The notes under the pieces were generated by a model. It searched no databases, was not told the origin of the DNA, and saw only the letters and a program-made list of their open reading frames with translations. Both the position numbers and the translations under genes were made by a program. Shown in pieces: positions 32,706-36,402 of a DNA stretch of 64,000 bases (position 1 is the first letter of the stretch; each line of letters begins with the position of its first letter). Source of the stretch: Collimonas humicola (GTDB lineage: Bacteria; Pseudomonadota; Gammaproteobacteria; Burkholderiales; Burkholderiaceae_D); NCBI RefSeq assembly GCF_018304945.1, contig NZ_JAGQEE010000008.1, positions 1 through 64,000 on the forward strand, in the 5' to 3' direction.

Positions 32706-33125
32706 ATGACATCGTCCCACAAGAACAAGACACTCACCACTTTCCTCGCTACTGTATTCGGCAGCATCGGCCTGCATCGGTTTTACCTAAAGGGATTCAG
32801 CGATATCTGGGGCTGGCTGCATTTTGCTTCCTTGCCAGTTTCGCTGCTGGCTTACTGGCTATGGTGCAAGGATCAGCAGGCCGCATTCCTGTTCGGACCA
32901 TTGATTGTTTCCGGATTGATTGCCTTTCTGGAATCACTGGTCATTGGCCTGACCCCGGATGAAAAATGGGACGCCAAATACAATGCCAATTCCGGCCGGC
33001 AATCGGACTCCAGCTGGTTTGTGGTCCTGCTGGTTGTGCTGACCCTGGGCGTAGGCGCGATCGGCCTGATCGGTGCGATTGCCCGCACCTTCGACCTGAT
33101 GTACACCGGCGGCGCCTACGGTTGA
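32706..33125 (+). CDS. TM2-domain membrane protein
   Basis: Small inner-membrane protein of 139 aa from ATG 32706. It starts with a short charged segment followed by the TM2 domain hallmark: LATVFGSIGLHRFYLKGFSDIW then two hydrophobic helices with a turn (about 35-80). A third TM (about 108-130) follows a hydrophilic loop. TM2 proteins are of unknown function in bacteria. No good Shine-Dalgarno precedes the ATG; the frame is open upstream to 32634. Its original downstream terminator was interrupted by the IS4-type element that starts 37 bp after the stop codon. Confidence 0.75.
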   Translation: MTSSHKNKTLTTFLATVFGSIGLHRFYLKGFSDIWGWLHFASLPVSLLAYWLWCKDQQAAFLFGPLIVSGLIAFLESLVIGLTPDEKWDAKYNANSGRQSDSSWFVVLLVVLTLGVGAIGLIGAIARTFDLMYTGGAYG

Positions 33126-33138
33126 CATGCCCATGAGC

Positions 33139-33161
33139 CGTAAAAAAAGCAGCCGAGGCTG
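33139..33161 (+). terminator. Left half of an IS-split palindromic terminator
   Basis: Left arm 33139-33154 plus GA centre and the first five bases of the right arm, ending at the insertion point. With the right-hand fragment 34589-34599 it would rebuild a perfect 16-bp-arm palindrome with seven A's and seven T's, a bidirectional terminator. As it stands only a 5-bp stem remains (cagcc-ga-ggctg) and the T-run is gone on this side. Confidence 0.8.
33150..33161. repeat. Target-site duplication, left copy
   Basis: The 12-bp sequence cagccgaggctg is identical to 34577-34588 and directly abuts the left end of the IS. Length 12 bp fits the IS4 family (usually 9-13 bp). Confidence 0.95.
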
Positions 33162-33170
33162 TAATGCCGT

Positions 33171-34496
33171 TCAGTTAAGGTCTCTTTTCAGGACCCGAAC
33201 GGAGTAACGTTGAGGTAGCGCTTTGACGACCCGGTCGCAATGTCGACCGGGTCGGTCTTCGTTCAGCAGGGCGATTAATCGTTGCCGCAAGCGTTGCAAC
33301 AGAGCCGGCAACTTGCCATATGAGCGAGTTACTGCGGCCCAGTGCAGTTCGTACTGGATGACGTGAAAGGCACGCACGAAGCTAATTTCAGTCGGTTCAC
33401 ATTTCACGGCTAGCGCCGTTTTTGCCATTTCCAGTCTGATTAAGTTGTACGCGGTCAGTGTTCCCCATATTTCCTGGTAGACGCCTTCTACCGTTTTGCT
33501 GCGCAGCGTAAGAGTCTTGCCCAACATAGTCTGCTTCAATTCCCGATAGCTCGTTTCAATTTGCCAACGTCGTTCATAGCACGCAGTAATGTCGACGGCT
33601 TTGTAACGCTTACGATCGAACAATGATGTAAGCAGAATCTGTTTGCGCGCAGATGGATCGATTACGGTAATGGCTCGTACCTGCCAGAATTCGGGCAGTT
33701 CAGGACATTTGCGACGCGCCTGCGGCGATATGCGCATCTGGATTAATGCGTCGCCAGTGCTTTCCTCTAGCACTTCCCATTTCGTGTTGGCTTTGGCTGG
33801 AATGATGAAGTGGCGATTGTTGCCCCGGCCAGTTAAGTTGCATAAGATTTCCGCCGACAAAAAGCCTTTGTCAAAGGCCGTGAGGGAATCGTCGGGAATA
33901 GAGGACACCAGTGCTTTGGCATACTGCATTTCGTGCGTACCGTAGGGACCAAAGGCAGCACTACGAATCAGGTGCGTCGAGACATCCGTTAGCGTGACCC
34001 CGCGTATCTGAGGATAGCTCGACACGGCACAGGCGTAGCGTTGGGCGCCGAAATGCTGACGGTGTTCTGGCGTATCAACCGCTTTTAAGGTTGTGCCGTC
34101 CATGGCGAACAACCTCAAGCCCTTGAATTGGTAGTGTTTGTTGTCCTGATCGCACCACGCGCGGGCGGATAACTCAAACAGCGCTTGCAACGGCGCCGCC
34201 CCAAGTCGCTGGCGTGCTTGCGCGACCGCACTTTTGCTGACGAACGGAGCTTGGACATCTGGCAGGGCCAGATCCAAATCGTCGATGACTTCGCTGATGG
34301 ATTGATGCCGATACAGCGCCAAGGCAACTACCAACCAGACCACCTGCTCGGCTGGGAGCCGACGGTGCCGGATGCTCGCCTTGCCAGTGTAATTGATTGC
34401 CTTCTCTATCCACTCATATGGTAAATGTTGCCCCAGGCGCTCCCAGTTGGGTGCCTCCTGAGTTTCAGCCATAAAATGGATCGCGTCATCAAGCAT
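33171..34496 (-). CDS. IS4-family DDE transposase
   Basis: Transposase of 441 aa covering nearly the whole element. The N-terminal region (about 10-95) matches the IS4-type N-terminal domain. The RNase-H-like core has AMDGTTLKAVD (first Asp), AFDKGFLSAE (second Asp) and YERRWQIETSYRELK, which is exactly the IS4 Y-(2)-R-(3)-E-(6)-K signature with the catalytic Glu. No frameshift or stop. ATG 34496 is the first start after an in-frame stop; a GGAGG lies 16 nt upstream, further than usual, so translation may be weak. Confidence 0.95.
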   Translation of the reverse strand: MLDDAIHFMAETQEAPNWERLGQHLPYEWIEKAINYTGKASIRHRRLPAEQVVWLVVALALYRHQSISEVIDDLDLALPDVQAPFVSKSAVAQARQRLGAAPLQALFELSARAWCDQDNKHYQFKGLRLFAMDGTTLKAVDTPEHRQHFGAQRYACAVSSYPQIRGVTLTDVSTHLIRSAAFGPYGTHEMQYAKALVSSIPDDSLTAFDKGFLSAEILCNLTGRGNNRHFIIPAKANTKWEVLEESTGDALIQMRISPQARRKCPELPEFWQVRAITVIDPSARKQILLTSLFDRKRYKAVDITACYERRWQIETSYRELKQTMLGKTLTLRSKTVEGVYQEIWGTLTAYNLIRLEMAKTALAVKCEPTEISFVRAFHVIQYELHWAAVTRSYGKLPALLQRLRQRLIALLNEDRPGRHCDRVVKALPQRYSVRVLKRDLN

Positions 34497-34545
34497 GCAC
34501 GCAGGTTAACAGCCTCCAATTGCGTTTACAACACTTAAAAACAAA

Positions 34546-34575
34546 AATGCCGTTCAGTCTTAACTGAACGGCATT
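34546..34575 (-). terminator. Hairpin with U-tract at the IS right end
   Basis: Perfect 13-bp stem, 34546-34558 (aatgccgttcagt) with 34563-34575, 4-nt loop. Read on the minus strand it is followed by ATTTTTGTTTTT, the pattern of a Rho-independent terminator. It is built from a second, inverted copy of the IS terminal repeat. It faces transcripts entering the IS from the acyl-CoA dehydrogenase operon. Confidence 0.75.
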
Positions 34576-34576
34576 A

Positions 34577-34599
34577 CAGCCGAGGCTGCTTTTTTTACG
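34577..34599 (-). terminator. Right half of the IS-split terminator
   Basis: Right copy of the 12-bp target duplication (34577-34588) followed by ctttttttacg (34589-34599). For the minus-strand acyl-CoA dehydrogenase operon the stem is now only 5 bp, and the T-run that should follow has been displaced by the IS. Confidence 0.8.
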
Positions 34600-34611: not shown

Positions 34612-36402
34612 TCAGAACTGATCTTCCGTCAGCGCCATCACGCCGCTGCTGCCTTCGATTACCGAGATGCGGTAAGCCTCAGCCTGGGACAGGATATGCT
34701 CGGCAAAGAAACGCGCCGTGCCGATCTTGGCCTGGTAGAAGCCGCTGTCGCCGGCGCCCTCGGCCAGCTTGCGCTTTGCCGCCAGCGCAGCGCGGCCGAG
34801 CTGCCAGCCGCCCAGCACGACGCCGGCCAGCTTCAGGTACGGCACGCTGCCTGCAAACACACCCTTGATATCGCTTTTCAGGTTGTCGACGACATAGCTG
34901 ACCACCTGCTCCAGCGCATCGGCGCCGCTGGCCAGCTGCTTGCCGATCGCCACCAGTTCGGCGGCGCCGCTGCCCGCCAGTTCCGCCTGGGTAGCGCGCA
35001 CCTGGGCGATGATCGCCTTGGCGACAGCGCCGCCGTCGCGTACGGTCTTGCGGCCGATCAGGTCGTTGGCCTGGATCGCCGTGGTGCCTTCGTAAATCGT
35101 CAGGATCCGCGCATCGCGATAGAACTGCGCGGCGCCGGTTTCTTCGATAAAGCCCATGCCGCCGTGGACCTGCACGCCGGTCGAGGCCACATCGATCGAG
35201 ATCTCGGTCGACCAGCCCTTGACCACCGGCACCATGTATTCATAGAACGCCTGGTTGGCCTTGCGGACCGCTTCGTCAGCATGATGATGGGCTGCGTCGT
35301 GCGCCGCCGCGGTGACATAGGCCAGCGCCCGCGCCGCTTCGATCTGCGAGCGCATGCTCATCAGCATCCGCCGCACATCCGGCTGATGGATGATGGTCAC
35401 GGCGCCTGCCGAGCCGGCCAGGTCGCGCGACTGCACCCGGTCCTTGGCATATGCCACGGCCTTTTGATAAGCACGCTCTGCCACGCTGATGCCTTGCAGG
35501 CCGACCGCAAAACGCGCCGCGTTCATCATGATGAACATGTATTCCAGGCCGCGGTTTTCCTGGCCGACCAGGGTACCGATCGCGCCGCCATGGTCGCCGA
35601 ACTGCAGCACCGCGGTCGGGCTGGCCTTGATGCCCAGCTTGTGTTCCAGCGAGACGCAATGGACGTCGTTGCGCGCGCCCGGCGTACCGTCGGCGTTGAC
35701 CATGAATTTCGGCACGATGAACAGCGAAATGCCTTTCACCCCTTCCGGCGCATTCGGCGTACGCGCCAGCACCAGGTGCACGATATTTTCCGCCATATCG
35801 TGTTCACCGTAGGTGATGAAAATCTTGGTGCCGGAAATCTTGTAGGTGCCATCGTCCTGCGGCACGGCGCGGGTGCGCACCAGCGCCAGGTCGGAGCCGG
35901 CCTGCGGCTCGGTCAGATTCATGGTGCCGGTCCATTTGCCGGACACCAGGTTTTCCAAGTAGATGCGTTTTTGCTCGTCGCTGCCGGCGGTCAGCAGCGC
36001 TTCGATCGCGCCATCGCTCAGCAGCGGGCACAGGGCGAAGGAAAGATTGGCGGCGTTCAGCATTTCGATGCAAGGCGTCGCCACCAGCTTCGGCAAACCC
36101 TGGCCGCCGAATTCGACCGGATGCTGCACACCTTGCCAGCCAGCTTCGGCAAACGCCTTGAAGGCCTCCTTGAAACCCTTGCTGGTGGTGACTTCGCCAT
36201 CGTGCCAATAGCTTGGCTCCTGATCGCCGCTACGATTCAGCGGCGCCACCACTTCACTGCAAAACTTGGCGTTCTCTTGCAACACTGCTTCCACGGTTTC
36301 CGGGGTCGCGTCTTCGCAACCGGGCAGCGTGCTGACCTGCTCCAGGCCAGCCAGTTCGTTCAGTACGAACAGCATGTCCTTCAACGGGGCGACATAACTC
36401 AT
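34612..36402 (-). CDS. Acyl-CoA dehydrogenase (DmdC/FadE-like)
   Basis: FAD enzyme of 596 aa that introduces an alpha-beta double bond into acyl-CoA and passes electrons to ETF. It has the N-terminal helical domain, the middle beta domain (TMNLTEPQAGSDLALVRTRA, KIFITYGEHD) and the C-terminal helical domain. IYEGTTAIQANDLIGRK carries the catalytic Glu. An extra C-terminal domain (about 470-590) distinguishes this long subfamily, often annotated as 3-methylmercaptopropionyl-CoA dehydrogenase. The chain specificity is not readable here. A strong AGGAG lies 9 nt before the ATG. It follows etfB-etfA, its likely electron acceptor. Confidence 0.92.
   Translation of the reverse strand: MSYVAPLKDMLFVLNELAGLEQVSTLPGCEDATPETVEAVLQENAKFCSEVVAPLNRSGDQEPSYWHDGEVTTSKGFKEAFKAFAEAGWQGVQHPVEFGGQGLPKLVATPCIEMLNAANLSFALCPLLSDGAIEALLTAGSDEQKRIYLENLVSGKWTGTMNLTEPQAGSDLALVRTRAVPQDDGTYKISGTKIFITYGEHDMAENIVHLVLARTPNAPEGVKGISLFIVPKFMVNADGTPGARNDVHCVSLEHKLGIKASPTAVLQFGDHGGAIGTLVGQENRGLEYMFIMMNAARFAVGLQGISVAERAYQKAVAYAKDRVQSRDLAGSAGAVTIIHQPDVRRMLMSMRSQIEAARALAYVTAAAHDAAHHHADEAVRKANQAFYEYMVPVVKGWSTEISIDVASTGVQVHGGMGFIEETGAAQFYRDARILTIYEGTTAIQANDLIGRKTVRDGGAVAKAIIAQVRATQAELAGSGAAELVAIGKQLASGADALEQVVSYVVDNLKSDIKGVFAGSVPYLKLAGVVLGGWQLGRAALAAKRKLAEGAGDSGFYQAKIGTARFFAEHILSQAEAYRISVIEGSSGVMALTEDQF

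Follow-up and report, generated by a model that had tools for sequence, protein, structure and literature searches.

Most examined insertions of an IS4-subgroup lineage are centred on the dyad of intrinsic terminators

The window, a stretch of 64,000 nucleotides of Collimonas humicola DNA, contains two genes that converge on an interrupted bidirectional terminator: a gene for a TM2-like membrane protein (32706–33125, plus strand), whose TM2 match is weak (E = 5.9e-5; 23.6 bits, below the Pfam cut-off of 27.9), and an acyl-CoA dehydrogenase gene (34612–36402, minus strand), assigned from a profile match. The left half of the terminator (33139–33161, CGTAAAAAAAGCAGCCGAGGCTG) comprises an A-tract and the first copy of a target-site duplication (33150–33161, CAGCCGAGGCTG), which is identical at 12 of 12 positions to the second copy (34577–34588); the latter, together with a T-tract, makes up the right half (34577–34599, CAGCCGAGGCTGCTTTTTTTACG). 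Both halves can be read directly. Removal of the intervening insertion sequence (IS) and of one repeat rebuilds CGTAAAAAAAGCAGCC-GA-GGCTGCTTTTTTTACG, a palindrome with perfect 16-bp arms, seven A and seven T; this palindrome has a fold energy of −21.3 kcal/mol and is divided by the IS at its dyad. The original prediction had placed the IS at 33162–34576 with a 12-bp duplication, coordinates that proved exact on re-reading of the sequence, and had described a palindrome of 16-bp arms around a GA centre, with seven A's and seven T's, between convergent transcription units, which the reconstruction confirms.

The IS (33162–34576, 1415 bp), whose ends are defined by its terminal repeats and the duplication, carries its transposase gene on the minus strand. 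The 18-bp terminal inverted repeat, TAATGCCGTTCAGTTAAG, lies on the plus strand at the transposase-stop end (33162–33179) and on the minus strand at the transposase-start end (34559–34576). The transposase (33171–34496, minus strand; 441 amino acids) consists of Nterm_IS4 and DDE_Tnp_1 domains (E = 8.3e-31 and 3.2e-25, respectively, both above the Pfam cut-off), and its residues 307–321, YERRWQIETSYRELK, form the YREK signature, Y-(2)-R-(3)-E-(6)-K as defined in PMC2266710. The traits tabulated there for the IS4 subgroup include duplications of 10–13 bp and ends of the form -AATR, which the 12-bp duplication and TAATG ends of the window IS fit; its 1415 bp and one 441-residue ORF also fall within the size range of 1400–1650 bp with a single ORF. 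The 5'-CAT ends tabulated in PMC2266710 for the IS231 subgroup are not those of the window IS, which ends in TAATG. In all membership features tested, the window IS is an ordinary IS4-subgroup element, and its novelty lies in its target rule. A second copy elsewhere in the same genome (L002) is 99% identical and has no duplication; one of its flanks, ACCCGACGGGTGGTCTTTTTT, is a half-terminator and the other is unrelated, which suggests a later deletion or recombination. At the cut-offs used, genome searches were positive in 2 of 399 genomes at the order level and 1 of 369 at the class level, the genome of the window being counted.

The transposase-start end of the IS contains an inward-facing intrinsic terminator (34536–34576, minus strand), built of a 13-bp stem, in which the terminal repeat forms the first arm, a 4-nt loop and TTTTTGTTTTT, and folding at −19.7 kcal/mol. 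Judging from its sequence, transcription from the acyl-CoA dehydrogenase gene would be expected to stop here. The same design, a stem of 12–14 bp followed by a T-rich run, is present in 29 of the 29 Burkholderiales elements of the terminator-targeting lineage displayed (5 of them without a duplication), with stem folds of −17.9 to −20.5 kcal/mol, and in elements with an ORF of more than 400 amino acids the inward terminator always lies at the transposase-start end. A comparable hairpin occurs in one of seven displayed elements of a related clade (L096), and in E. coli IS4 a hairpin with five T lies at the opposite end. The orientation of the elements showed no bias with respect to tract asymmetry, with 4 versus 5 strongly asymmetric cases among 52 full elements and 1 versus 0 among 20 miniature elements (Wilcoxon P = 0.40 and 0.52, respectively), and thus gives no support for selection acting through the inward terminator. 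A count of flanking ORFs was set aside, since short flanks produced spurious ORFs at many sites; among its tandem cases, 7 full elements faced the upstream gene and 2 did not, as against 0 and 2 miniature elements.

The orthologous site was searched for in 15 genomes of the same genus, that of the window (G000) among them, and 14 of these hold the neighbouring gene. Nine carry an empty, intact terminator (G002, G004–G008 and G012–G014), four have an IS4-type or miniature element inside it and one is rearranged. In the nearest empty-site relative, G007 (92% identity in the neighbouring gene), the core is AAAAAAGCAGCCGAGGCTGCTTTTTT, and the match of this core to the left half of the split terminator in the window shows the rebuilt site to be real. 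Relatives lacking the IS therefore have the same kind of terminator, and the nearest the same core, as the original prediction required. The one orthologous terminator is occupied by different such elements across the four genomes: G000 has the IS, G011 and G003 have miniature elements of 191 bp and 197 bp, respectively, and G009 has an element known from one end, at a contig end. The duplication is CAGCCGAGGCTG in both G000 and G011 and GCCAACCGGC in G003, and the single visible flank in G009 ends in CAGCTTGGGCTG. As the two copies in G003 match each other and differ from those in G000, the insertions in G003 and in the window are best read as independent hits. All four occupied sites probably arose by independent hits, the case being strongest for the window versus G003; the duplication common to G000 and G011 may stem from an ancestral insertion whose interior was later exchanged. 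In G001 (L231), there is no terminator beside the dehydrogenase gene and a GTGGGCA...TGCCCAC palindrome stands in its place.

To survey other insertions, 101 distinct copies with duplications (at most 2 mismatches) were combined with 23 from plasmids, Photobacterium and E. coli. The resulting 124 sites were classed as 52 full elements, 36 miniature elements, 10 distant relatives (from Vibrio, Photobacterium, Klebsiella, Rhizobium, Parashewanella and an E. coli plasmid), 10 E. coli sites, 11 sites of the related clade and 5 further sites, with the K-12 IS4 grouped with the other E. coli copies as a separate class. A rebuilt target was called terminator-like if the 22–23 bases around the duplication centre folded at −6 kcal/mol or better on either strand and if, in addition, 4 of 7 bases were A in the left or T in the right flanking window. 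This test was passed by the targets of 49 of the 52 full elements (3 failing), 27 of the 36 miniature elements (9 failing) and 8 of the 10 distant relatives (2 failing), and by 7 of the 10 distinct E. coli IS4 sites (3 failing). The same test was passed by 96 of 3643 random intergenic points (2.6%) and 636 of 26357 genic points, a background drawn from one same-genus genome (400 kb), with the window added in the matched-site test described below, as against targets from many genomes. Target stems are unlike from site to site, the architecture of a terminator being their only common feature. Among the copies examined, which are all standing insertions, the preference for terminators is real, strong and general. 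The original prediction had proposed that copies of the IS be collected and their empty sites rebuilt, and most of the copies examined do lie in terminator palindromes centred on the dyad.

An initial, stricter test called for 4 or more contiguous pairs around the duplication centre itself. It was replaced by the fold-energy test, because the hairpin is displaced by 0.5–1 base depending on duplication parity and loop size; the stricter test was passed by 20 of 46 full elements, 15 of 36 miniature elements, 3 of 8 distant relatives, 1 of 11 sites of the related clade and 0.26% of background centres. The survey took in 11 of 60 plasmid matches listed and 13 of 60 E. coli matches listed, the E. 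coli picks being mostly copies away from the usual insG locus. It left out eight elements lacking a recognisable duplication (several have half-terminator flanks, though L014, L016 and L212 show none clearly), E. coli repeats of sites already counted (L263, L264, L283 and L287) and duplicates of one locus; both members of one orthologous pair (L001 and L143) were counted. In eight uncounted copies known from one end only (L044, L051, L052, L058, L059, L063, L064 and L068), an A-run of at least 5 precedes the element, as judged by eye.

Terminators occupied by IS4 in E. coli include those beside crr, bamD and adhE. The adhE terminator holds IS4 in opposite orientations in two strains (L286 and L289), indicating two or more independent hits, and some E. 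coli IS4 copies interrupt genes. The miniature elements (L140–L179; G011, G003 and G009) are 123–460 bp long, have the same ends as the IS, number more than 20 in G011 alone and sit mostly in terminators; some contain a GTAGGGTGGGCA...TGCCCACGCG palindrome. Four sites (L104, L178, L179 and L159) have A- and T-tracts and no hairpin, so that a hairpin is not strictly required, and such hairpin-less exceptions are mostly miniature elements. None of the three copies of one 194-bp miniature element in G009 (L177–L179) passes the terminator test, a hint that its target rule may be laxer.

The position of the hairpin relative to the duplication was then compared with that of the tracts. In 26-base windows, 92 of the 108 sites were foldable (−6 kcal/mol or better), and in 92 of these 92 the hairpin centre lay within 1.5 bp of the duplication centre (SD 0.50), although a window of this length itself favours centred hairpins, 51% of random folds of equal strength being centred. 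With 40-base windows, 94 of 99 targets were centred within 1.5 bp versus 27% of random folds, and with 52-base windows 90 of 102 versus 18%. The midpoint of the A- and T-tracts is distributed somewhat more loosely around the duplication centre (SD 0.81, n = 84); at the five sites where hairpin centre and tract midpoint are at least 2 bp apart, the hairpin is nearer in four and the fifth is a tie. Among the 66 IS and miniature sites with 12-bp repeats, T is present at +11 in 66 and A at −11 in 60. Re-dealing the right halves among these 66 sites (200 shuffles) weakened the mean fold energy from −12.13 to −5.85 kcal/mol (SD 0.26) and lowered the share folding at −6 or better from 86% to 46%; as re-dealt halves pair worse, the arms match each other beyond what their GC-rich composition provides. 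When targets and intergenic background sites with A at −11 and T at +11 were also matched in tract strength and GC core, a hairpin was present in 48 of 49 targets versus 14 of 47 background sites (15 of 48 under an alternative grouping of the same background), and with stronger tracts in 42 of 42 versus 4 of 8. Recognition of AAA-N18-TTT by sequence only is disfavoured by these tests.

Elements of other kinds differ in their targets. Insertions of IS3 type (rve transposase, PF00665) in four host genomes lay in terminators in 0 of 19 cases; these represent 19 of 30 loci retrieved, from four groups of identical copies with ends defined by copy comparison, and a duplication was seen in 6, the centres of the remaining 13 being approximate. 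A related IS4 clade from the same bacterial family (L093–L100 and L208–L213; ends TAATGCCGTTAAGTTAAG or similar) has 0 of 11 insertions in terminators and uses GGGTCAGACCC-like sites, 7 of the 11 having a palindromic core GGTC(A/T)GACC, 3 a half GGGTCAG only and one (L094) neither; the left flank of L095 is cut by a contig end. A Photobacterium subgroup (L276 and L278–L281, on a plasmid of Photobacterium sp. GJ3) likewise has none of its five insertions in terminators, two of the five (L276 and L278) having near-identical flanks and possibly representing one event. The targets of this subgroup are TTCCCGCGCAGGCGGGAA-like palindromes, which resemble an extragenic repeat. In a tree of 50 transposases, terminator targeting is found on E. 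coli, Vibrio/Photobacterium, Rhizobium and Burkholderiales branches, and the GGGTCAGACCC-type group (5 rows) forms one clade (support 100/100) among the Burkholderiales rows. The tree is rooted at its midpoint, with some forks open and several long end branches, and a direction of target change along it would be a reading rather than a proof.

The target class, the centring, the excess of hairpins over matched background, the empty sites and the different target of the related clade make it very probable that the IS4-subgroup transposase chooses intrinsic (Rho-independent) terminators and joins the element's ends symmetrically about the hairpin dyad. A two-fold symmetric transpososome would dock on the two-fold symmetric DNA of the terminator, reading the dyad of the stem and the flanking A- and T-tracts, with the stem perhaps partly extruded under negative supercoiling. 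The ends would be joined about a centre with A near −11 and T near +11, such that the GC stem (10–13 bp) is duplicated. The inward terminator of the element may restore termination on one side of the broken site, and may shield the transposase gene from read-through transcription. Such recognition of DNA dyad and tracts is the most likely mechanism, ahead of recognition of duplex sequence only, with a transcription-coupled process third. The duplex reading, in which an A-tract and a T-tract some 18–20 bp apart around a GC-rich core are recognised and the hairpin is a passenger, is a serious competitor that we nevertheless think unlikely. It draws on the near-invariant T at +11 (66 of 66) and A at −11 (60 of 66), on tract-bearing sites with a weak hairpin or none (L178, L179, L159, L132 and L261) and on the K-12 IS4, which lies in AAA-N20-TTT with a poor hairpin; against it, hairpins at matched sites are far more frequent in targets (48 of 49 versus 14 of 47, and 42 of 42 versus 4 of 8 with stronger tracts), shuffling of right halves weakens pairing at unchanged composition, and insertion tracks the hairpin and not the tract midpoint in four of five diverging sites, with one tie. 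The symmetry- or hairpin-guided choice of the original prediction is accordingly supported by the centring, with the A-tract/GC/T-tract duplex also fitting and a minority of sites being hairpin-less.

Recruitment of the transpososome by a paused termination complex, or by supercoiling or the RNA hairpin at active terminators, appears improbable. The targets do resemble functional terminators, and the same terminators were hit repeatedly, at the orthologous site and, in both orientations, at adhE in two E. coli strains; yet the two-fold centring and the symmetric demands for A and T are those expected of DNA recognition, there is no bias to the T-tract side, and the related clade inserts outside terminators. 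Least probable by a wide measure is broad insertion with copies persisting only in dispensable terminators, a form of the entry into harmless places that had been put forward beside symmetry-guided choice. Terminators are gene-free, and certain E. coli IS4 copies do disrupt genes; however, random intergenic points pass the terminator test at only 2.6%, the centring is left unexplained, and with 0 of 19 IS3-type insertions in four host genomes and 0 of 11 insertions of the related IS4 clade in terminators, survival in harmless places cannot be the main cause. Returning to dyad recognition, a broader picture can be drawn tentatively, as one that we hold to be somewhat more doubtful than not: the lineage would home not on a sequence but on a structural class, the terminator palindrome, recognising its dyad, possibly as a cruciform, and splitting its centre; the Burkholderiales elements would bring a replacement terminator made from their own terminal repeat; and the target would have been re-specified at least once (to the GGGTCAGACCC-type), with the REP-like palindrome of Photobacterium as a possible second case.

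If dyad-centred targeting holds, the IS4 subgroup's arm specificity would amount to one for intrinsic terminators, where insertion spares genes, and a textbook IS family would be recast. Insertion at gene ends can alter operon boundaries and read-through, so that IS4-type elements, like the miniature elements derived from them, may reshape 3' ends both in Burkholderiales and in E. coli. The related clade with another target offers a natural comparison for what in a DDE transposase reads the shape or symmetry of a target, and the presence of IS4 in laboratory E. coli makes the question of its target directly testable.

Among known systems, IS231A, also of the IS4 family, prefers palindromic targets with flanking bendable DNA. 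It differs from the window IS in subgroup and ends, and its known targets are transposon ends, not terminators. E. coli IS4, with the target consensus AAA-N20-TTT, is the closer comparison; an insertion of IS4 in the pheST attenuator was reportedly described in 1984. In the account of PMC2266710, IS4 and the IS4 subgroup have in common with the present elements a YREK DDE transposase, a single ORF, duplications of 10–13 bp and AATR-type ends, and some members show strong arm specificity (De Palmenaer et al. 2008, PMC2266710). The main text of that article, figures aside, does not contain the word 'terminator'; here, by contrast with that account, the arms are identified with the A- and T-tracts of an intrinsic terminator, and hairpin centring and controls are added. 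Several ISs, among them the IS4-family member ISRm22, have been reported to target REPs (Tobes and Pareja 2006, PMC1525189), and REP-targeting ISs such as ISPsy8, which inserts at the symmetry axis of the hairpin, resemble the present elements in using the axis of an extragenic palindrome. As described in PMC1525189, however, REPs are repeat sequences of a genome, whereas the present targets have no common stem sequence: stems vary between sites instead of forming one repeated palindrome. Group IIC introns target the stem-loop of Rho-independent terminators (PMC7923331), but are described there as retroelements that insert beside the stem-loop, whereas here a DDE transposon splits the dyad and duplicates the stem. 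A literature search of incomplete coverage found no statement that intrinsic terminators are the target of IS4. Arm specificity, REP-targeting ISs and, reportedly, one attenuator insertion were thus already known; apparently new is a lineage that targets intrinsic terminators at their dyad.
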